Origin: Fimbriimonadaceae bacterium
GTDB lineage: Bacteria > Armatimonadota > Fimbriimonadia > Fimbriimonadales > Fimbriimonadaceae
NCBI GenBank assembly: GCA_019454145.1
Contig: CP075366.1
Span: 723,564-787,563 of the forward strand
Length of the DNA: 64,000 nt
Reading direction: 5' to 3'
Shown: positions 17,245-61,678 of the stretch, in pieces
Layout: the number at the start of each line of letters is the position of its first letter
How positions within the stretch are numbered: position 1 is the stretch's first letter
Made by a program: the position numbers and the translations under genes
Notes under the pieces: model-generated
What the model was told of the DNA's origin: nothing
The model's database searches: none
Seen by the model: only the letters and a program-made list of their open reading frames with translations

Positions 17245-18060
17245 GTGATTCGATTAGTCGCCACAGACATGGATGGAACCTTTCTCACCAGTGAAAGAAA
17301 GCTGCTGCCTAAAAACGTAGAAATGGTTCACCGGCTTCTTGAATCGGGAATTGTTTTTTGTCTCGCTAGTGGCCGAGGTATTTCCACAATTGAACCGTTC
17401 TGGCAAGAACTTGGAATTAAAGGGCCGACGGTCAGTAGCAATGGCGCCTTTGTAATTGACCATATCGGAACAACAATTGCGAATCATTCGCTCCCCGAAA
17501 ACATCCTTTCCCAACTCATTGAATACGCACGAACCCATTCCATTCACGTTAACCTTTACTCAGGAGACGACATATTTTTTAGCCAGGAAGGCAAGTTCGC
17601 CGATCTCTACCGTATCAGAACTGGATGCTTCCCGACGATACAAACGCTAGATGAACTCAATTCACGCTCTGCAACGAAGCTTCTGTTTGTAGACCACCCA
17701 GACAGGATCATCCATCATACCAAGGCCACTGCCGAAATTCTGGCCGGTACAAATATTGCCGTCGTTGTTTCCGAACCAGACTATCTTGAGTTTTTGCCAA
17801 TTGGAATAAACAAAGGGATTGGGCTCGCTCGATTGGCCGAATCTCTTTGCATTTCACAATCTGAAGTAGCGGCAATCGGTGATTGGACGAACGACCTTGA
17901 AATGCTGGTGTGGGCAGAATTTTCTGCCTGCGTTTCGAACGCAGCACCGGAAATCAAAGCCGTCGCACAAAGGATGTACAGTTCTAACGATGAAGGCGGC
18001 TTCGCTGAGTTCGCCCAAGATGTACTAAAGTTAAATATGAGAGGTATAATAAGCGAATGA
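17245..18060 (+). CDS. HAD-IIB (Cof-type) phosphatase
   Basis: This 271-residue protein has the HAD nucleophile motif D-M-D-G-T (D8, D10), a motif II Ser in SSNGA, a C2B cap and the GDWTNDLEM motif IV near residue 212. That is the Cof/YidA architecture, which dephosphorylates small phospho-sugars or flavin-type substrates. Start is GTG 17245. The stop overlaps the next ATG (ATGA), so it may share a transcript with the exported proteins that follow, although their functions look unrelated. Confidence 0.9.
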   Translation: MIRLVATDMDGTFLTSERKLLPKNVEMVHRLLESGIVFCLASGRGISTIEPFWQELGIKGPTVSSNGAFVIDHIGTTIANHSLPENILSQLIEYARTHSIHVNLYSGDDIFFSQEGKFADLYRIRTGCFPTIQTLDELNSRSATKLLFVDHPDRIIHHTKATAEILAGTNIAVVVSEPDYLEFLPIGINKGIGLARLAESLCISQSEVAAIGDWTNDLEMLVWAEFSACVSNAAPEIKAVAQRMYSSNDEGGFAEFAQDVLKLNMRGIISE

Positions 18061-19169
18061 GGAGCCATAAAAGAGCGTCCATTTCATGCCTATTCGCGCT
18101 ACTGAGCGCGAGCGCATTTGCAGGCACCATTACGTTAGCCGCCCCAAACGAGGGTGATTTTCTTGGAAAAGCCAATACGATCACTTTCAATATCACCAAT
18201 GCTTCGGCTCAGGTTACAGTTTTGGTCAAGTTGACACAAGTTGCTGATCCTACAGTCTCTATTTCAACCACCAAGCAGTTTACGCCAGATGTTGATGGCA
18301 AGATTAACGGAAGTATTAACTTCAATCTAAGCGAAGGATTGACTAATGGTGCTTACACTTTGCAGGTAACACCAACGGAGCCAGGTGCGACTTACAATGT
18401 GCTTGCCCCGCTTAACGTTACCGTAGACGTTAAAGATCCGAAGTTTTTACAATTCAACCCGATAGATGCTGGCTTTGTCCGCGGATCGGTAATCGTGACG
18501 GCCGAATTCCTTGAAGACAACATGAAGGAATGGCGCGTGCAGGTCAACGGCTCCGACATCCCCAACAATACAGGAAACACTAACAATTTAATGGTGATCT
18601 GGGATTCCTCGTTGGAAGCAACAGACGGCACAAAGTCCATTGCCCTTTCATCAGAAGACCTTGCCGGTAACTCCGCAAACCGATCCATTAGCGTGACCGT
18701 CGATCGCACTCCTCCGACTTCAACGGTACTGGCCCCTACGCCATCTGATCCTGTATTTGGCAACGGACAGATTCCAGTTGTCGTTCAGGTTCAAGATCAG
18801 TTCAACGGTTCACTGGATGCCAGAACCATTGACGTACTTATCCGAGACACCAGTGGGAACTTCATTACGCGAGTCGCGCGCCGATCAGTTAATAACAATG
18901 GTAGTTCGGTCACTTGGTCAGGTCGAATTCGAGACCTTTCCAGACTTCCGTCAGTCTTTGATATCGTAGTCATCGCTACTGACAAAGCTGGCAATTTGGC
19001 AGCTGATCAAACAGTGCGAATCACTCAAGGCGGACGGGGGGTTTCTGAAAAGCCTCATTCCGAAGGGCCGCTCCATGGTGCAGCATATGTCAGTCAGACA
19101 GTTCGAGATACAACGCAATCATTTTTGCGAAATGGTCACGGAAACCGTGGTCGAAACCGCAACAACTAG
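18057..19169 (+). CDS. exported Ig-like domain protein
   Basis: This 370-residue protein has a Sec signal peptide cleaved after about residue 22 (A-F-A). The mature chain is beta-rich. Segments around 23-120 and 125-215 look like consecutive Ig/FN3-type domains, and a third begins at S-V-T-V-D-R-T-P-P near 217, a common linker of bacterial Ig-like repeats. The end is Gly/Arg/Asn-rich (NGHGNRGRNRNN). It has no catalytic motif I recognise; a structural or adhesive role in the envelope is likely. A TATAAT at 18045-18050 stands 6 bases before the ATG. It is the first of three exported proteins closed by the terminator at 21727. Confidence 0.75.
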   Translation: MRSHKRASISCLFALLSASAFAGTITLAAPNEGDFLGKANTITFNITNASAQVTVLVKLTQVADPTVSISTTKQFTPDVDGKINGSINFNLSEGLTNGAYTLQVTPTEPGATYNVLAPLNVTVDVKDPKFLQFNPIDAGFVRGSVIVTAEFLEDNMKEWRVQVNGSDIPNNTGNTNNLMVIWDSSLEATDGTKSIALSSEDLAGNSANRSISVTVDRTPPTSTVLAPTPSDPVFGNGQIPVVVQVQDQFNGSLDARTIDVLIRDTSGNFITRVARRSVNNNGSSVTWSGRIRDLSRLPSVFDIVVIATDKAGNLAADQTVRITQGGRGVSEKPHSEGPLHGAAYVSQTVRDTTQSFLRNGHGNRGRNRNN

Positions 19170-19210
19170 CATTCGCAGACAAAAACGGGTAAAAAATCAG
19201 GAATAACAAC

Positions 19211-20341
19211 ATGAACGCAAGGAAGCAAATAGGGCTGATCCTCCTTCTAGTCATCGTGCCAGGGGTTGCCTCGGCACAAGTCCCCGATCTTTTGAATGCT
19301 TTAGATGCTGGCGGCAGAGCGATGGGTGTTGGTGGCGCGAGTCGAGTAACAGACAGCACTACTCAATCCGCATTAGATAACCCTGCCGGCCTCGCGTTTA
19401 TTAGTGAGCCGACTGCTTCGATTTCTTTTCGCAACCTTCCAAAGAGCACCATTTTAGCGAGTGGAAACTTTAACGACCGATCCAACAGCACCGATGAAAC
19501 AAGCGGTCGAATTGCGTTAAGCCACGTTGGATACGCCACGCCACTTGCAGGAGGAACCCTTGGCGTGAGTTACACGGTCGGCGGACACATGGATGCCGTG
19601 ACGACTGGAAACAATCTCCCTAACAACACACTCACCGTTAGAAACCTTGAAGAAACCATGCGAGCGCAAACAGACTTCTTCACCCTTTCCTACGGTCGCC
19701 AAAATGGAGGTTTGAACGTTGGTATTGGTTTGGTTGTTGCTAACCAATACGTCAAGTATTCGCAATCGTACTTGCTGTTCGATGGCAACACTCCAGTTGG
19801 ATCAACCAACATCTCTGCTTCCGACAATGGCATCGGCGTTGGTGTAGTTGCTGGTGTGCAAGGCTACATGGGTTCTGATAACACTACCGCTTGGGGCCTT
19901 TCAGTTCGCACGCCTATTGATCTTAACGGCAATAGCGAAACAAGTGGAATCTACGACAAGATTCCAGGCAAGGCATCATTCGGCGTCGGCGGTCAGCTCA
20001 ATCGATTCTCTCGAGGCGAAGATTTCTTAGTCTGGCTTGCTCAAGTTGACTATTACTTTGGCGGTGATGAAGACCTCTTGTTCTCCCGCAAGAATTACGC
20101 AACCTTCGGCTTCGGTGTTGAATACAACATGCATCGCTACAACGCTCGGATTCCTATCCGTCTCGGATTCAGCATTCTGCCATCGGGTGGCAACGGTTTC
20201 GACAGTCGCGATGCCTTCACGTTTGGTCTAGGGTATCGCCCGATTGGTAAGCCATACTCAATTGACCTCAACTTCGCCCGAACTTTTGAATCAGGCAAAA
20301 TGGATATTGGGCTGGGCATCACGTTCAAACCGGGGAACTAA
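19211..20341 (+). CDS. PorV/FadL-like outer membrane beta-barrel protein
   Basis: This 376-residue protein has a signal peptide ending A-S-A near residue 22. The mature start, D-A-G-G-R-A-M-G-V-G-G-A followed by S-A-L-D-N-P-A-G-L-A, is the diagnostic N-terminus of PorV/PorQ/UPF0164 barrels. The rest alternates polar and aromatic strands and ends GLGITFKPGN, consistent with about 14 strands. PorV-type proteins are outer-membrane channels or shuttle receptors; in Bacteroidota they serve type IX secretion. No other type IX component is in view. AGGAATAACAAC before the ATG is a good ribosome site. It is 13 bases from the caspase-like gene. Confidence 0.85.
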   Translation: MNARKQIGLILLLVIVPGVASAQVPDLLNALDAGGRAMGVGGASRVTDSTTQSALDNPAGLAFISEPTASISFRNLPKSTILASGNFNDRSNSTDETSGRIALSHVGYATPLAGGTLGVSYTVGGHMDAVTTGNNLPNNTLTVRNLEETMRAQTDFFTLSYGRQNGGLNVGIGLVVANQYVKYSQSYLLFDGNTPVGSTNISASDNGIGVGVVAGVQGYMGSDNTTAWGLSVRTPIDLNGNSETSGIYDKIPGKASFGVGGQLNRFSRGEDFLVWLAQVDYYFGGDEDLLFSRKNYATFGFGVEYNMHRYNARIPIRLGFSILPSGGNGFDSRDAFTFGLGYRPIGKPYSIDLNFARTFESGKMDIGLGITFKPGN

Positions 20342-20353
20342 GAACGAAATCTT

Positions 20354-21718
20354 ATGAGCAAACAAACATTCAAACTGCTTTTCGTATTTGGAGCGGCAGT
20401 CGTAGCGATTGCCGCATTTGCTGACTGGCAATCCGACTATGAAAATGGCTTGAAAGCAGCTAAGAATGGCGACTGGGGCGTTGCTCGTGATTCTTTTGTA
20501 GCCGCTATGGCTTCCCGCGCCGACGATGCAAATACATCCACTCGTTTGCCTGGGCCAATCACCGAACCACGCTACTGGCGAAATGGTGCTCTCTATTCCC
20601 CAAACTTTGCCGCTGCATATTCAGCGTATCAACTTGGCAAGAATGCAGCTTCGGAAGAGGATAAAAGCCAGTACCTTTCGCTCGCAGCTAGTGAAATGCA
20701 ATCTTTGATTCAAGATAAGAATCAGGTCAGCCCAGAGGTGATCAAATCCCTGGGGAAAGTTTACGATCTCCTTGGAGACAAGGAAGCAAAAGCAAACCTG
20801 AAGGGATTAACTCCCAACTGGAAGGTTGATGCTTCGTTTGTCCAGGCAGAAGATCAAGCTGGATCAGTCAATACTGGTGGTTCTCGCAATAATGGTGGCT
20901 CAAACGTAGGAGCACCGGGCGGAACCGCAGCTGGCGACACAAAGGGCCAAATCATCAAAGTCAAAGCCGGTGAACACACCAACCTTGAAGGTATTTTTGG
21001 TGAGGGCCCGGTAACCACGATTGATACCAAATATGCGTTGGTCATCGGCAATTCAAAATCAGCAGACAAAGATGCGGCTATTCCATTTGCGGCAAGTGAC
21101 GCAGAAGCTGTACGAGATGCGCTCACTCAATTTGGGGGATACGAAGCGGAAAAGGTTGTCACCTTAATTGACGTCACCGCTAGCCAAATTCGAGATGCAG
21201 CTAAAGCACTTGCAGAATCGATTCCAAACGATGCAACCGTAGTCATCTACTTCACCGGAGTAACCGCTCATCTTGGTGGACGCGACTACTTTGCGGGCGT
21301 TGATGCAGAATTTCACACCGATACTTCCAAGATGGTCGAAAAGCAGGACATCTTGCGACCCCTCAGCGATAAAGGTGCAAGCATCTACCTGTTCACGCAA
21401 TCCAATCGCACTATGGAAGGCGGAAACTATTTTGGTCAGGAAAGATTGATGCGCGGCACGGTTAGCGAAGCTTACGCAACAATCCCCGGTGGGCAGATCA
21501 CGAGCATTGTGACAGGTGGAAAGCAGATCGGCCTCTACACCTACGCGTTCACAAAGACCTTGCAAACGTTCTTTACAAATGAAGTTCCCATTTCGGATTT
21601 CTGTTGGAATGTGTTTTACACCATGCGACGTGGTTCAAATTCAGAAAGCATTGGTGGTTCGGTTCAAACACCAACCCTACCTGTTCTGACAAACATGGCT
21701 CGCGATAGCCGGTTCTAA
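20354..21718 (+). CDS. exported caspase-like (C14) pseudoenzyme
   Basis: This 454-residue protein has a signal peptide ending near A-F-A (23), a helical TPR-like region (about 25-150) and a Gly/Asn/Ser linker (about 170-200). A caspase-hemoglobinase fold domain follows (about 225-400): YALVIGNSKS, then DAEAVRDALTQFGGY and VVIYFTG. The catalytic dyad is missing. The strand that normally ends S-G-H-G reads TGVTAHLGG (301-309), and the loop that normally reads D-A-C-x-S reads LFTQSNR (346-352). The only cysteine past the signal is C417, far from that position. It is probably a non-proteolytic scaffold or sensor that works with the preceding barrel and Ig-like protein. The terminator follows 8 bases after the stop. 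Confidence 0.8.
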   Translation: MSKQTFKLLFVFGAAVVAIAAFADWQSDYENGLKAAKNGDWGVARDSFVAAMASRADDANTSTRLPGPITEPRYWRNGALYSPNFAAAYSAYQLGKNAASEEDKSQYLSLAASEMQSLIQDKNQVSPEVIKSLGKVYDLLGDKEAKANLKGLTPNWKVDASFVQAEDQAGSVNTGGSRNNGGSNVGAPGGTAAGDTKGQIIKVKAGEHTNLEGIFGEGPVTTIDTKYALVIGNSKSADKDAAIPFAASDAEAVRDALTQFGGYEAEKVVTLIDVTASQIRDAAKALAESIPNDATVVIYFTGVTAHLGGRDYFAGVDAEFHTDTSKMVEKQDILRPLSDKGASIYLFTQSNRTMEGGNYFGQERLMRGTVSEAYATIPGGQITSIVTGGKQIGLYTYAFTKTLQTFFTNEVPISDFCWNVFYTMRRGSNSESIGGSVQTPTLPVLTNMARDSRF

Positions 21719-21726
21719 AATCCACG

Positions 21727-21766
21727 AAAGGCTTTGAGTAAATTAACTCAAGGCCTTTTCATTTTC
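21727..21766 (+). terminator. strong intrinsic terminator
   Basis: A 13-base-pair stem (21727-21739 with 21746-21758, one G-T wobble) and a 6-base loop are followed by TTTTCATTTT. It ends the exported trio. It also overlaps a TTG (21734) that would otherwise extend the next gene upstream. Confidence 0.9.
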
Positions 21767-21769
21767 AAA

Positions 21770-22642
21770 ATGGAACCTACAGAGCAATTACGCGATACTC
21801 CGCCGCTTGATCCAAGTGCAGTTTTTCTCTATCAACTTATTGCTGGCAAATACTGCGACAAGTATGTTTCGACATTTTTAATCCCCAATCTTCAAAAAAC
21901 CATTAAGAAGGAATTCACCACACTTGAAGAATGGCGATTAGAGCTAGATAATCCACTTTCAGCTCTCCAAGTATTTTTGGGGCATTACGGATTCGCTCGA
22001 CGTGGCAAAGACCGCGATGAATGCAGCCGGACTGCACTCAAAGCCCTCAATCTAGTATTAGAAAACCAATCAATACAAGAACTGCTCGCTCAAGCCGATG
22101 GAACACAGTTGTGGAACTCCTATGAAGCTGAATGCCTGTCCAAAGGGCGAAAAAGCAACGAAGCGCAAAATAGAGGGATTGTTCAAGGCCTCCTCGAACT
22201 CGCTCAAGAAATCTATCGCGAAGATAATAATGGCTCTATTGTTACCTGGCTAGTTGATGGAGTAGATAACGCTGACCGGTTAGAGCCGCAGTTTCTACGG
22301 ATTGTGGATATCCGTGGAGTTGGCCCCAAAAGCACTTCCACGTTCGTTCGCGACATTGCATTTCTTTACGATTTAGAAAAAGATATTCATCCCGCCGACA
22401 GAATATATATTCAGCCAGTCGATCGGTGGCTGAGGGCGATCACTGAGTACGTTGTTCCTGAGCCAAACATGGAAAATGCCGCTGACTGGGTAGTCGCAGG
22501 AAAGATCAACAAATACGCCCGTCGCGCCAAGGTAAGCGGAGTAAAGTTCAATTTAGGGTTAACCTACTTTGGTCAGAGAGTCGTCCGCGACCCAGACCGC
22601 TTTAGCTCGGAAATCAAAAAACTACTGGCTGACGCGACCTGA
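21770..22642 (+). CDS. HhH-GPD glycosylase-like protein, unknown
   Basis: I start this at ATG 21770 (290 residues) because the upstream TTG lies inside the terminator stem. It is mostly helical and no named family comes to mind. Near residue 182-225 there is a helix-hairpin-helix pattern, I-R-G-V-G-P-K-S, followed about 30 residues later by Q-P-V-D-R-W-L-R. This resembles the L-P-G-V-G-x-K-T ... V-D-T-H/x-x-x-R arrangement of endonuclease III, in which the lysine and aspartate are catalytic. There is no C-terminal four-cysteine iron-sulfur cluster and no clear N-terminal glycosylase half. It may be a DNA-binding or base-excision relative; the role is unproven. Its 3' end overlaps coaX by 21 bases. 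Confidence 0.65.
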   Translation: MEPTEQLRDTPPLDPSAVFLYQLIAGKYCDKYVSTFLIPNLQKTIKKEFTTLEEWRLELDNPLSALQVFLGHYGFARRGKDRDECSRTALKALNLVLENQSIQELLAQADGTQLWNSYEAECLSKGRKSNEAQNRGIVQGLLELAQEIYREDNNGSIVTWLVDGVDNADRLEPQFLRIVDIRGVGPKSTSTFVRDIAFLYDLEKDIHPADRIYIQPVDRWLRAITEYVVPEPNMENAADWVVAGKINKYARRAKVSGVKFNLGLTYFGQRVVRDPDRFSSEIKKLLADAT

Positions 22643-44237: not shown

Positions 44238-45539
44238 TTAGTCGACTTTGAAAGCTACGATTTGGTAGCCACGCCGACCTTCTTCCAGGCCGTAGTAGTG
44301 TCGCTGAGTTCGTTGTCGTCCCCAAGGATCGCGGTACACGTGTTCAGCGTAAACCGTCACTCGACCTCGGTTGTTCTTGACTTCGCGGATACGGTAGTCA
44401 ATGGTTTGCGTACCTTCCACTAAGTCGCGGATTAGATCGTAGAAATCATCTCCACGTAGGCTGTACTGCGCGTACCGACCCATATCAACGCTCACCCAAT
44501 CACGATCTGGAATTAACGATTCCATGTACCGCACTCGACCACGTCGGAATGCATCATAGATATCATCTACCGCATCATCAATGTAGTCTCGATTGTAGTT
44601 GTTGTTCCAACCCCAATCATTTCGGTAATTGTCGTATTGCCAACGGTATGTTGAGCCGCTGCGCCATTCGAAACTGATGAAATCGAAGTTGACCCGAATG
44701 ATATTGATATAGCCAGGCATGTTTGCATAGCTGTACCAAGGTGACGGAACACATCGGTCGTTGTAACTGAACTGATAGTGTGGATACCAGTAATAGTCAT
44801 CGCGCCAATTGTTGTTGTATTGGTAGTACCCTTGCCGATAGTTGTTCGGCACGTTTCGAGTTACCCGGTTTTCACCGTTAGCTTCGCGAGTTTGGGGGTT
44901 TCCACCGCGCACAACTGGAGGAGGCGCAAAATCTTGACCGCTTCGAGTTCGTGAAATCTGGTTGTTTGAACCACCGTAAGTGACATTGCCACTTCTGGAA
45001 TTCTCACCGCGGTCGCGACCAGTTACGGTTGGAGGAGTTTCTCGCTCTTGACCGCCGTTACCACGATCGCCATTGTTTCCGCCTCGACCGATAACACCGC
45101 CACCATCAGAACCACCGGAACCGCCACCGCCTCTTACTGGAGGAGGAGATTGTTGGCCACCGCCGGAGCCACCGCTGCCACCGCCTCGGCTTGGAGGTGG
45201 AGACTGATTGCCTCCGCCACTACCGCCACCGGAGCCGCCACCTTTACCAGGAGGAGGTGATTGTTGACCACCACCGCCGCTTCCGCCACCGGAACCACCG
45301 CCTTTGCTAGGGGGAGGAGTTTGCTCTCCACCACCTCCACCACCACCGCCGCGACTTGGAGGAGGATTTTCTCCGCCGCCACGTCCACCGCCGTTGCCGC
45401 CGCCATTACCATGTCCGCCGCCCGAGCCTCCGCCCGAACCGCCACCTGAGCCCCCACCCTTTCCAAGCTGGGCTTGTGAAATGGTAGGTGTAGCCACTGC
45501 CATCAAGCCGGCTACAAGGAAAGGAAGGAATTTTTTCAT
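44238..45539 (-). CDS. exported Gly/Ser/Pro-rich protein with NTF2-like tail
   Basis: This 433-residue protein has a signal peptide ending Q-A-Q (about residue 24). It is followed by a low-complexity region (about 27-150) of GGGSGGG-type linkers interrupted five times by PPP(S/G/V)(R/K)GG units. An Asn/Tyr/Trp-rich middle follows (about 230-330), then a compact C-terminal domain (about 340-433) whose pattern of helices and strands (AFRRGRVRYM, YSLRGDDFYDLIRDL, RVTVYAEHVYRD) resembles the SnoaL/NTF2-like fold. The function is unknown; a matrix, adhesin or envelope role is a guess. A promoter with 17-base spacing ends 11 bases from the ATG. Confidence 0.75.
   Translation of the reverse strand: MKKFLPFLVAGLMAVATPTISQAQLGKGGGSGGGSGGGSGGGHGNGGGNGGGRGGGENPPPSRGGGGGGGGEQTPPPSKGGGSGGGSGGGGQQSPPPGKGGGSGGGSGGGNQSPPPSRGGGSGGSGGGQQSPPPVRGGGGSGGSDGGGVIGRGGNNGDRGNGGQERETPPTVTGRDRGENSRSGNVTYGGSNNQISRTRSGQDFAPPPVVRGGNPQTREANGENRVTRNVPNNYRQGYYQYNNNWRDDYYWYPHYQFSYNDRCVPSPWYSYANMPGYINIIRVNFDFISFEWRSGSTYRWQYDNYRNDWGWNNNYNRDYIDDAVDDIYDAFRRGRVRYMESLIPDRDWVSVDMGRYAQYSLRGDDFYDLIRDLVEGTQTIDYRIREVKNNRGRVTVYAEHVYRDPWGRQRTQRHYYGLEEGRRGYQIVAFKVD
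45090..45461 (-). repeat. Gly/Ser/Pro-coding degenerate tandem repeats
   Basis: About 370 bases encode five units of a Pro-Pro-Pro, basic, Gly-Gly core separated by 7-12 residues of GGGSGGG linker. On the plus strand it appears as CCACC-type runs. The repeats are degenerate at DNA level but share many 8-12 base blocks, so they could expand or contract by slippage. Confidence 0.75.
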
Positions 45540-58445: not shown

Positions 58446-60437
58446 TTAGTCCACTCTGAATCCTTTGTCTTGCCAGGTACTGCGCAAAATGGTTGGGCTA
58501 CGCGGGAGATCAAGATCGATCAACGGTTGCTTGGTAACTTCACGCTCACGAATGCGGTTGTCGTAATTCATACGGATAGGCAAACTCCAAGTAACAATCG
58601 CTTCGTCCCGACTGATAATTGTTCCGTTGAGGGTCATGCCACCACCGGCTGTGCCAACGTTTCCACCACCGACGAAGTTGGTGTAAAGAACCGCATCAAT
58701 TTGGTTTACGCCGCCAGCGGCAGCCGCTTTGTAGGCAGCCTTCGTTGCATTGTCAAACTCAAGGAGCGACTGGTACTTCTTAATTCCCCAGCTATCAACT
58801 TCGTTTGCGTTGTATGCAGGAATCAAGTTGCCGTTGTCATCGTAACGTCCCTTGGTAAACGGAGGGGTCATGTACTGAAGCGGATTGGTGCCAAACGTCG
58901 TAGTATCGCCCATGATGATTGACTGGCTTGCAGCTAATCCTACGAAGTCTGCCTTTTCGGCGGCGGCTTCAATCGAGTTCATGTTTGAGCCAGTGAAGTT
59001 CGGGGGATTTTTGTACTTGAATGATCCGATAACATGGATATTTCGTTTGGAATACATCGTGCCTTGGCCTTGAATCGTTCCAGAAACAGCTACGTCGCCG
59101 TTAAAGGCAACCGGGCCGTGGATACGAATCGGCTTGGCATCAGTTCCAATAAGGAGCGCACTGCCATTGACAACGCCGTTGGAACTCACGCGCTTGTACG
59201 CGCCGTTGCCGTTATTCAAGGAAGCATCCCAAACGTCAACATAAGCACCCTTATAGTTCACGTTTGGCTGACCGGATATAAACTCAGCTTGCGAGCCAGC
59301 GTTTCCGGAGTAATTCGGATTCGCTGTTCCATCGGAGTAAGTCGCCTTATCGTCAGTGTAGGCTTTGCTTTTTGCAAAACGTTTACCGCCGGAATCCGCC
59401 ACGTCGGTGACGTTGCCAAAATCACGAAGATCAGGCATGATGATTTCTTCCGTTGGTCGAGAATCGAGCATTGTTTCGGTAGAAGCTCCGCCCGTATTGA
59501 CCCATCCTCTTGAGCCTTTTGAATCCTCAATTGCCGCCCCAAAAATTCGGTTGTTCGCAAGCTGCGCTTCACTGAAGAAGACCAAGTCTCGCCATTTTTC
59601 GAATTCAGCACTGCCAATAGCTCCGTGTCTTGCGGGATCGTACGGCTGGCGCATGCGAGTTCGGTGCGGAGTAGATGCGTTGTTGTAAAGTGACGCGTAG
59701 CTTGAGTCGGTCATCTTGAGCGGCGTGTGATTGACCAAGCCAGCGGCGGCTGGAGTGAGCTTCTCGTTCAAACTCGCAACAACCGATCCGTTGATCGTTC
59801 CTGAACCGTTCAGAAAGTCGAAGTCAGCGTTCGACCTCATATCGCCGTTTACAATCAAGTTGCTTGGGCTGAACCCGCTCATCCAACCGTAGTTGTTAAT
59901 GAAGTAGGTGTAGTCAAAAACGCGGCTTCGAGCTAATCGGAATTCTGCAATGACTTCAACGGTTTTACGTGGTTCGCCAGCATCGGCGATAGAATTATTG
60001 TTTTGATCAATCCAACCGATTGAACGGATTTTCACCATACGCGAGTAGGTATCGCCCGCTGGAGTCCAGTATGAAACTACTCCAGCCGCATAACGCCCAA
60101 CGGATGGCAATTGCCCAGATTGACTTCCCTTAGGTGTTGCCTCAGCCGCACCAACAAGCTGACTGTCCATATCTGTAAAGATTTGGCTTTGCTTGAATGG
60201 TCTCCAAAGCTGAAGCATAACCGCTTGAATCCCAGCATCGCAAAGGTTGGTGGTCTGCACCTCTTTGGTGTTATGGCTTGCTAACCTGATCGACATAGTT
60301 GCGCGATCAATGTAGCTGGTCGCAGCAATGGTGATGACCATCATCAATCCAAAGGTAACCAACAGGGCGACGCCCCGCTGCTTTGAGTGTCTGCGTTTGG
60401 GTTTCATAACTTTCACCGATTCTTGTTTTGCCCTCAC
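58446..60437 (-). CDS. PilX-like pilus assembly protein, long
   Basis: This 663-residue protein starts with a basic, Q-R-G-V-A-L-L-V-T-F-G-L-M-M-V-I-T-I type N-terminus, the PilX/PulK-like prepilin membrane helix. Start is GTG 60437 (GTGA overlap and GGAG site) or ATG 60407. The remainder is a large beta-rich exported domain with N-G-S-V/N-G-D-V/N-G-T-I strands, suggesting a beta-solenoid-like repeat in the C-terminal half (about 440-620). Classical PilX is only about 170 residues, so this looks like a pilin fused to an adhesin-like domain. It overlaps the PilW-like gene by 4 bases. Confidence 0.8.
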   Translation of the reverse strand: MRAKQESVKVMKPKRRHSKQRGVALLVTFGLMMVITIAATSYIDRATMSIRLASHNTKEVQTTNLCDAGIQAVMLQLWRPFKQSQIFTDMDSQLVGAAEATPKGSQSGQLPSVGRYAAGVVSYWTPAGDTYSRMVKIRSIGWIDQNNNSIADAGEPRKTVEVIAEFRLARSRVFDYTYFINNYGWMSGFSPSNLIVNGDMRSNADFDFLNGSGTINGSVVASLNEKLTPAAAGLVNHTPLKMTDSSYASLYNNASTPHRTRMRQPYDPARHGAIGSAEFEKWRDLVFFSEAQLANNRIFGAAIEDSKGSRGWVNTGGASTETMLDSRPTEEIIMPDLRDFGNVTDVADSGGKRFAKSKAYTDDKATYSDGTANPNYSGNAGSQAEFISGQPNVNYKGAYVDVWDASLNNGNGAYKRVSSNGVVNGSALLIGTDAKPIRIHGPVAFNGDVAVSGTIQGQGTMYSKRNIHVIGSFKYKNPPNFTGSNMNSIEAAAEKADFVGLAASQSIIMGDTTTFGTNPLQYMTPPFTKGRYDDNGNLIPAYNANEVDSWGIKKYQSLLEFDNATKAAYKAAAAGGVNQIDAVLYTNFVGGGNVGTAGGGMTLNGTIISRDEAIVTWSLPIRMNYDNRIREREVTKQPLIDLDLPRSPTILRSTWQDKGFRVD

Positions 60438-61069
60438 TTGATCAACTCCGGCACATTGCGTAAAACAACTCGTTCCCGTTTCCTCGTCCTCAGCGATTCG
60501 CCTGCACGTCCGCCCTTGGTTCCCGTGACAATCTGAACAATGACTTCATTGATCAGGCCCGTTGAACTGGCGGTAAAAATTCGATAACTCGGCGCAACTT
60601 CTGCACCTTGGCTCGTGTGGCGCATTTTTCTTTGCACGGTCGTTGTGCTGAGCATAAATGGATCAACCGTTAAGACATTCCTTGCGACTACGCGCTCAAC
60701 CCCGCCAGTTCCCCGCAAGATAAGGTTAGTGCCATTCAGATAAATGCGGCGGCTGACTCCATCCCAAACCACAGGAACTGCAAAGTTGCCATTGACATCT
60801 TTGTTTGGGTGACGGTACGTAATTCCTCTTCCGTCTGCGTCAATAGTTACCAACATTGCCTGACGAAGTTCGTCGGAAATGACCCGTACGGCTTGGCGAG
60901 TATCGTTCTCGCCATCCATCAAGTTTTCACCTCGTGCCCATGCGCCAGCACAAGCAATAAGCAAGCTCACCGCTGACGTCAAAACTATTGTGGATATCAT
61001 GGAACCCACAACAACTTCCGCAAGCGTGAAGCCACTTTTTCGAGATCGAATTCTTTTCTGCATAGTCAC
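60434..61069 (-). CDS. PilW/PulJ-like prepilin
   Basis: This 211-residue prepilin has the signature S-G-F-T-L-A-E-V-V-V-G-S-M-I-S, with cleavage expected after Gly13 and Glu at mature position 5. The rest is a globular beta-rich domain (for example R-R-I-Y-L-N-G-T-N-L). It is a minor pilin that helps prime the type IV pilus or a type II-like pseudopilus. It lies 5 bases after the PilV-like gene. Confidence 0.9.
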   Translation of the reverse strand: MTMQKRIRSRKSGFTLAEVVVGSMISTIVLTSAVSLLIACAGAWARGENLMDGENDTRQAVRVISDELRQAMLVTIDADGRGITYRHPNKDVNGNFAVPVVWDGVSRRIYLNGTNLILRGTGGVERVVARNVLTVDPFMLSTTTVQRKMRHTSQGAEVAPSYRIFTASSTGLINEVIVQIVTGTKGGRAGESLRTRKRERVVLRNVPELIK

Positions 61070-61074
61070 TTCCG

Positions 61075-61554
61075 TTATAAATTAGCGATTAATGTAGCGA
61101 GCCGAACGCTCTTCCAAACGCTCTTTTCTTGCCATGCAATGATCACGGTTACTCGCCGGAGATCGGCAGATACCTGTTCAGACTTGATATAGCCCCGACC
61201 ATTCGGCAATACAGCCGCTGGGCTATCAACATTGGCTGCGTCAACGGTCGTAAATTCGAGGGCAGTTTCACCTGCCGTACCAAAAGAAAATCCGCTGATA
61301 CTCACTGCTGTCGAGCTTTGAACCTTTCCATCATCAGCTAGCCGCTGAGCACTTGAGTTTGCGTAGCCGCCGCCTCGAATTGACTCGGAAGTTTTTTGAG
61401 CCAAGCTTGTAGCTGCGTTCAAATTGTCGGCTTTACCCCGGGTGAAGTTTGCAAATGGAACAGTAGCGGTAAAGATGAGCGCACACACAAGGGCCAGGAA
61501 GGCCGAAAACATGGCTTCCATTAATGTGTGACCTCTAACTTTATTACTTCGCAT
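61075..61554 (-). CDS. PilV-like prepilin
   Basis: This 159-residue protein starts at ATG 61554 (GTG 61566 possible). The N-terminal sequence R-G-H-T-L-M-E-A-M-F-S-A-F-L-A-L-V is a prepilin signature with Glu at mature position 5 and His in place of the usual Phe at position 1. It is the first gene of the minor pilin operon; the class (PilV) follows from size and position. Confidence 0.85.
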   Translation of the reverse strand: MRSNKVRGHTLMEAMFSAFLALVCALIFTATVPFANFTRGKADNLNAATSLAQKTSESIRGGGYANSSAQRLADDGKVQSSTAVSISGFSFGTAGETALEFTTVDAANVDSPAAVLPNGRGYIKSEQVSADLRRVTVIIAWQEKSVWKSVRLATLIANL

Positions 61555-61678
61555 GATTATCTTCACCGTGACGCACTTAGACCCTGGAGGGGTTTTTCCA
61601 TTAGCTTTGCCCCTCTTTCCCCGTAGGGTTACGAGTTTGTCCTTCTAATATTCTCGGTTGAATAATAAGGGAATCTGC

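Follow-up and report, generated by a model that had tools for sequence, protein, structure and literature searches.

Three exported proteins encoded side by side in a Fimbriimonadaceae genome, an Ig-like protein, an outer-membrane barrel of the FadL fold and a caspase-like protein that lacks its catalytic residues, form a conserved and probably co-transcribed unit in the Armatimonadota. We regard the conserved unit as well supported and highly probable. The trio points to an unstudied surface-assembly system, which is akin to the type IX machinery but lies outside it.

Gene order and conservation of the trio

The window, which is the whole stretch of 64,000 nucleotides that we analysed, comes from a genome that consists of a single contig of 2.76 Mb. 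The gene for the Ig-like protein (18057..19169, 370 aa), the gene for the barrel (19211..20341, 376 aa) and the gene for the caspase-like protein (20354..21718, 454 aa) are located on the plus strand and are separated by 41 and 12 nt, respectively. Each protein starts with a hydrophobic leader and contains no later transmembrane-like segment, as judged from hydropathy only. The unit ends in a predicted intrinsic terminator with a 14-bp stem (21726..21759, +; -19.5 kcal/mol, z = -7.0 against shuffles) directly 3' of the stop codon of the caspase-like gene, which a simple terminator scan missed. Upstream of the trio, a gene for a Cof-type HAD-IIB phosphatase (17245..18060, +; TIGR00099 above the cut-off) overlaps the start of the Ig gene by 4 nt (ATGA). 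An earlier note on this DNA had described three neighbouring exported reading frames, one strong terminator at their end and a HAD phosphatase gene overlapping the first member, and all three features were confirmed. The note had further suggested an envelope complex of the three proteins, an idea that would fall if the genes were not neighbours elsewhere or if the barrel worked alone with unrelated neighbours. In the other genomes the genes are neighbours, as described below, and the complex itself is putative.

The HAD gene frequently heads the gene run, and its distance to the Ig gene ranges from -4 to 111 nt in 27 loci. In most of the order, the next gene after the caspase-like one is uncharacterised (21734-22642, +); it has no match in Pfam or NCBIfam, and the stretch 'IRGVGPKSTSTFVRDI' in its product resembles a helix-hairpin-helix motif by eye. 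Both genes are regular neighbours, which we do not count as parts of the system with confidence because no leader was seen by eye in either product, and it is doubtful that the HAD gene belongs to the system. Elsewhere in the window, a cluster on the minus strand (58446-61566) by eye resembles genes for minor pilins or proteins of the pilus tip, and another minus-strand gene (44238-45539) codes for an exported protein whose N-terminal half is very rich in Gly and Pro.

In four families of the Fimbriimonadales, 48 of 50 loci keep the order Ig-barrel-caspase on one strand, with and without changes in the flanking genes. Within the family, all three genes are present in this order at 39 of 41 loci (our own and 40 others), one third gene running off its contig. 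Three further families of the order contribute nine loci, all with the complete trio in order, again with one third gene that runs off its contig. The spacing between the genes in the 48 loci is mostly less than 65 nt. The closest named relative, a Fimbriimonadaceae MAG (L100), encodes a caspase-like protein that is 91% identical. A contig titled Methanoregulaceae archaeon (JADZEW010000008.1; L122) contains an ordinary Fimbriimonadaceae-type trio locus and is probably mislabelled or mixed. A putative fusion of the barrel and the caspase-like protein in one genome (G006) was rejected as an artefact of a stretch of N in the assembled sequence. A flagellar link through the adjoining FliD gene was also rejected, as some genomes have FliD but no trio and others the trio but no FliD.

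Among 113 genomes of the order, 76 contain both the barrel and the caspase-like protein, five only the caspase-like protein, one only the barrel, and 31 neither (strong matches counted by hand; Fisher p = 2e-21, uncorrected for kinship). Two of the genomes with only the caspase-like protein (G133, G140) and the one with only the barrel (G150) are fragmented assemblies or have contig ends at the locus. Absence of both is common to family f3, the genera g9, g14, g29 and g30, and several large genomes of g20. Genuine exceptions are the genome G020 and the genus g31, which keep the caspase-like protein without the Ig-like protein and the barrel; in G020 (L142), there is no barrel and no strong Ig match in the genome. 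The caspase-like protein may therefore not depend on the barrel in these two lineages. At two loci (L140 in G031, and L143), its gene is placed directly after the HAD gene, without the Ig and barrel genes.

Anatomy of the three proteins

The identities that the earlier note had assigned to the trio, an Ig-like protein, a PorV/FadL-like barrel and a "dead" caspase, were all borne out. The Ig-like protein in the window matches Pfam Big_13 (E = 3.6e-9) as well as related Ig families, and Big_13 is found in 28 of its 29 homologues. Judging from the matched spans, the leader is probably followed by about three Ig-like domains and a basic tail, and the C-terminal part gives the best PDB match (2yn3, E = 3.5e-4). 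At L182 and L183, the homologues reach 816 and 718 aa, and it is at their C-termini that the last domain of the window protein has its best match (domain E = 1.5e-18 and 8.7e-15). The homologues differ in their number of Ig domains, of which the C-terminal one is best conserved in the two larger proteins. This specific last domain was not recognisable outside the order.

The AlphaFold model of the barrel (pLDDT 88.3, pTM 0.85) is a β-barrel with an N-terminal hatch, as in the FadL family, in which short helices precede the first strand. FadL structures rank first in Foldseek, the best being the FadL homologue of P. aeruginosa (3dwo, E = 1.2e-11), and are followed by chains of the Bacteroidota BAM and type IX complexes, namely a subunit of the F. 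johnsoniae BAM complex (9n2d_B, E = 2.7e-9) and a chain of the T9SS complex (8gl6_F, E = 2e-6). The sequence search lists 8gl6 together with the PorV chain 6h3i_F, which is the best, if marginal, PDB match by sequence (E = 0.014). The barrel contains an NPA motif near the N-terminus, in which no member departs from N57 or P58 and A59 is at least 90% conserved, and the 'delta NPA' mutant of E. coli FadL is among its structural matches. The NCBIfam model PorV_fam, which covers PorV/PorQ, matches 41 of 42 barrel members (best E = 4.2e-13), while the 'PorV2' model matches 13 and the Toluene_X/FadL model of Pfam matches 12. The window barrel itself has no Pfam match, and it matches PorV_fam with an E-value of 3.6e-7 and 30 bits, where the curated cut-off is 90. 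The barrel is a member of the FadL superfamily that leans to PorV/PorQ, with a fold that is nearer to FadL than to PorV.

The third protein matches Peptidase_C14 (E = 3.9e-9, residues 226-355), and its model (pLDDT 86.1, pTM 0.57) consists of a TPR-like helical head (~24-150), a disordered linker (~172-200) and a caspase-fold domain (~222-454) that is closest to MALT1 (3v4o, E = 1.8e-10). TPR_2 is the one TPR model that matches, in 18 of 46 members. Matches to the head in other classes (L167-L169) were set aside; they lie in proteins that have other neighbours, and a scan of L167 and L169 showed plain TPR proteins. In the window protein, valine is located at the position of the catalytic histidine and asparagine at that of the cysteine, and neither catalytic residue is present at the dyad positions in any of about 100 aligned rows of the order, which come from overlapping sets with some genomes included twice; 68 of the complete sequences are unique. 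The substitutions across the order are mostly V/A and N/S. A HMMER alignment to MALT1 puts the cysteine one residue earlier, where five rows have a cysteine and none has the histidine. The protein is thus a pseudo-orthocaspase, that is, a caspase fold without the His/Cys dyad. The position after the cysteine is an arginine in 103 of the 103 rows with a residue there (overlapping sets), and Gln/Glu is placed two positions before it. Because the neighbouring residues are strongly conserved, the lost site looks maintained rather than decayed. The last residue is a phenylalanine in all 68 unique complete sequences, which is unusual for a soluble protein and makes it a candidate docking signal.

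A search for anti-phage caspases gave only a weak generic caspase match (E = 2.5e-4), and the downstream gene, the barrel and the Ig-like protein had no match at all. A defence system is accordingly without support, as there was no match to a defence caspase or a defence partner.

A distant version with an intact caspase site

A search of the phylum with the barrel profile identified related barrels outside the order. In another family of the Armatimonadota (f12), an Ig-repeat protein of 1241 aa (G091) or 1168 aa (G095) is followed by a related barrel and by a giant exported protein (1377 or 1519 aa in these genomes) with a C14 caspase domain at its C-terminal end. The arrangement is therefore not confined to the Fimbriimonadales. 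This caspase domain contains FAGHG and DACR motifs with both catalytic residues intact in G091, G095 and a third genome, G094, which agrees with the same layout with its matches split over two contigs, so that the intact-dyad form is represented by three genomes from two genera. Matches in a search for the long form were limited to these three genomes and G177.

G177, which belongs to the Fimbriimonadales, contains a second, divergent copy (L184) with an Ig-type protein, a barrel and a long third protein beside the short set. The head of the long protein matches the head of the pseudo-caspase (E = 3.7e-10); its reading frame ends at the contig end, and no caspase domain is present in the readable part. 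In G211, there are two Ig-barrel pairs without a recognised caspase adjoining. At one of its loci (L188), the pair is followed by proteins of 339 and 924 aa with leaders, and the head of the latter, which has no Pfam caspase match, recalls the TPR head by eye. From these layouts, the pair of Ig-like protein and barrel has the widest distribution of the parts, and a caspase partner accompanies it repeatedly. In a tree of the caspase domains with few outgroups, the active domains of f12 did not group with the pseudo-caspases, which suggests that the two may be separate recruitments.

Possible roles and relation to known systems

We consider it about an even chance that the trio is an outer-membrane unit in which the barrel holds the Ig-like protein and the caspase fold serves as a non-catalytic receptor. 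The PorV/FadL-family barrel would form the membrane platform, the Ig-like protein would be its client or an extension at the surface or in the periplasm, and the third exported protein would use its TPR-like head and its C-terminal tail to dock on the barrel. In f12, the intact His/Cys caspase could process or anchor the Ig client, and the short version in the Fimbriimonadales, which lacks the catalytic residues, is probably a non-catalytic receptor or an assembly factor. The physical complex, the side of the membrane, the client relation and the docking surfaces are all putative, as is a descent of the short form from an active one. More tentatively, the trio may represent a system for outer-membrane display and processing independent of type IX secretion, where a PorV-like barrel presents an Ig-repeat client that a C14 caspase cleaves or anchors in one family and that a pseudoenzyme only receives or holds in the Fimbriimonadales; the pairing known from PorV and PorU would then have evolved separately.

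The main rival is a transport unit, in which a hydrophobic nutrient or lipid would be taken up through a FadL-type channel and the Ig-like and TPR-caspase proteins would be periplasmic or surface factors that deliver or gate the substrate. FadL and aromatic-hydrocarbon channels are the best structural matches, and the conserved NPA residues and the Toluene_X/FadL matches in 12 of 42 members agree with such a role. However, nearly all members match the PorV/PorQ model, no metabolic enzyme is a constant neighbour, and to our knowledge no FadL system has Ig and caspase partners, and we consider transport unlikely. We assign a similarly low probability to a structural envelope module, in which the barrel and the Ig-like protein would form a scaffold of the outer membrane or surface layer and the pseudo-caspase would serve in the periplasm as a TPR adaptor for other envelope proteins. 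The absence of catalytic residues in the order, the TPR-like head and the varying number of Ig copies, with large Ig-repeat proteins at the upper end, fit this explanation, as does the lack of the trio from whole lineages, which suggests that it is not essential, but the intact protease site in f12 is left unexplained.

It is very unlikely that the genes are mere neighbours without a functional link in a chromosomal block that is inherited vertically. Part of the synteny is that of the region, which counts against reading the trio as a unit: FliD, HDOD, CoaX and GlmM are also conserved around it, and the flanking genes between FliD and GrpE show widespread synteny across the family. Rate covariation did not discriminate, with 0.51 for Ig-caspase and 0.49 for the housekeeping pair CoaX-GlmM in twenty taxa, and was uninformative with nine taxa. 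Yet the trio is intact at loci with altered flanking genes (L059, L071, L077, L182), genomes without one of the three genes mostly lack the other two as well, and f12 has the order again with other flanks.

If the trio is indeed an outer-membrane unit with a caspase-fold receptor, the combination of a PorV-type barrel and a caspase-fold partner would not be limited to type IX secretion. Within one gene order, the Armatimonadota would have an apparently active and a dead version of the partner, so that the role of the fold itself could be tested against that of proteolysis. It would also provide a function for a gene set that is present in most sampled genomes of a little-studied order of which few members have been cultivated.

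A published analysis of Fimbriimonas ginsengisoli argues that its envelope is diderm, with genes for LPS as well as pili and type II secretion (PMC4072686). The trio barrel shares the fold and the NPA residues in the N-terminal region with the FadL/TodX channels, but more of its members match the PorV/PorQ model than the FadL model, and it has constant Ig and caspase neighbours. In the Bacteroidota BAM complex, the FadL-fold subunit of F. johnsoniae, BamG, serves as a scaffold for a surface protein, BamH (PMC12611786). The trio barrel matches a chain of an F. johnsoniae BAM complex (9n2d_B, see above); BamH differs in being lipid-anchored. Both catalytic residues are replaced in bacterial pseudo-orthocaspases as well (PMC6426788), where Tyr-Ser is common; the trio protein differs in its mostly V/A and N/S substitutions, its export, its TPR-like head and its tie to a barrel. 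The term 'Armatimonad' does not occur in the text of this 2019 survey. No publication that pairs a PorV-like barrel with a C14 caspase was found among the top-ranked matches of a literature search.

PorU has a caspase-like fold and belongs to the C25 family. In the type IX attachment complex of the Bacteroidota (PorU-PorV-PorQ-PorZ), this sortase binds the barrel PorV, which keeps it at the surface (PMC5562754), and Ig-like β-sandwich C-terminal domains take part as well (PMC5562754, PMC11285876). The third protein of the trio is instead C14/MALT1-like and lacks the dyad in the order; Pfam and NCBIfam gave only Peptidase_C14 for it, and no gingipain-type C25 or PorU model. The type IX sorting tail TIGR04183 was not found in the genome of the trio at E ≤ 0.001; as a control, it matched in two genomes, one of which, Deinobacterium, lies outside the Bacteroidota. 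Weak, sporadic matches to TIGR04183 occur in 28 of the 113 genomes of the order, in which SprA was undetected. The SprA search matched none of the 113 genomes and none of the control genomes either. Membership in the type IX system thus fails on three counts, namely the C25 sortase, the dyad and, for this genome, the sorting tails. The statement in the earlier note that the trio matches no known system therefore stands with regard to membership, but not with regard to the parts and the plan, as the barrel of the trio leans to PorV/PorQ and the type IX attachment complex combines a PorV-family barrel with an exported caspase-fold partner and a further surface protein.
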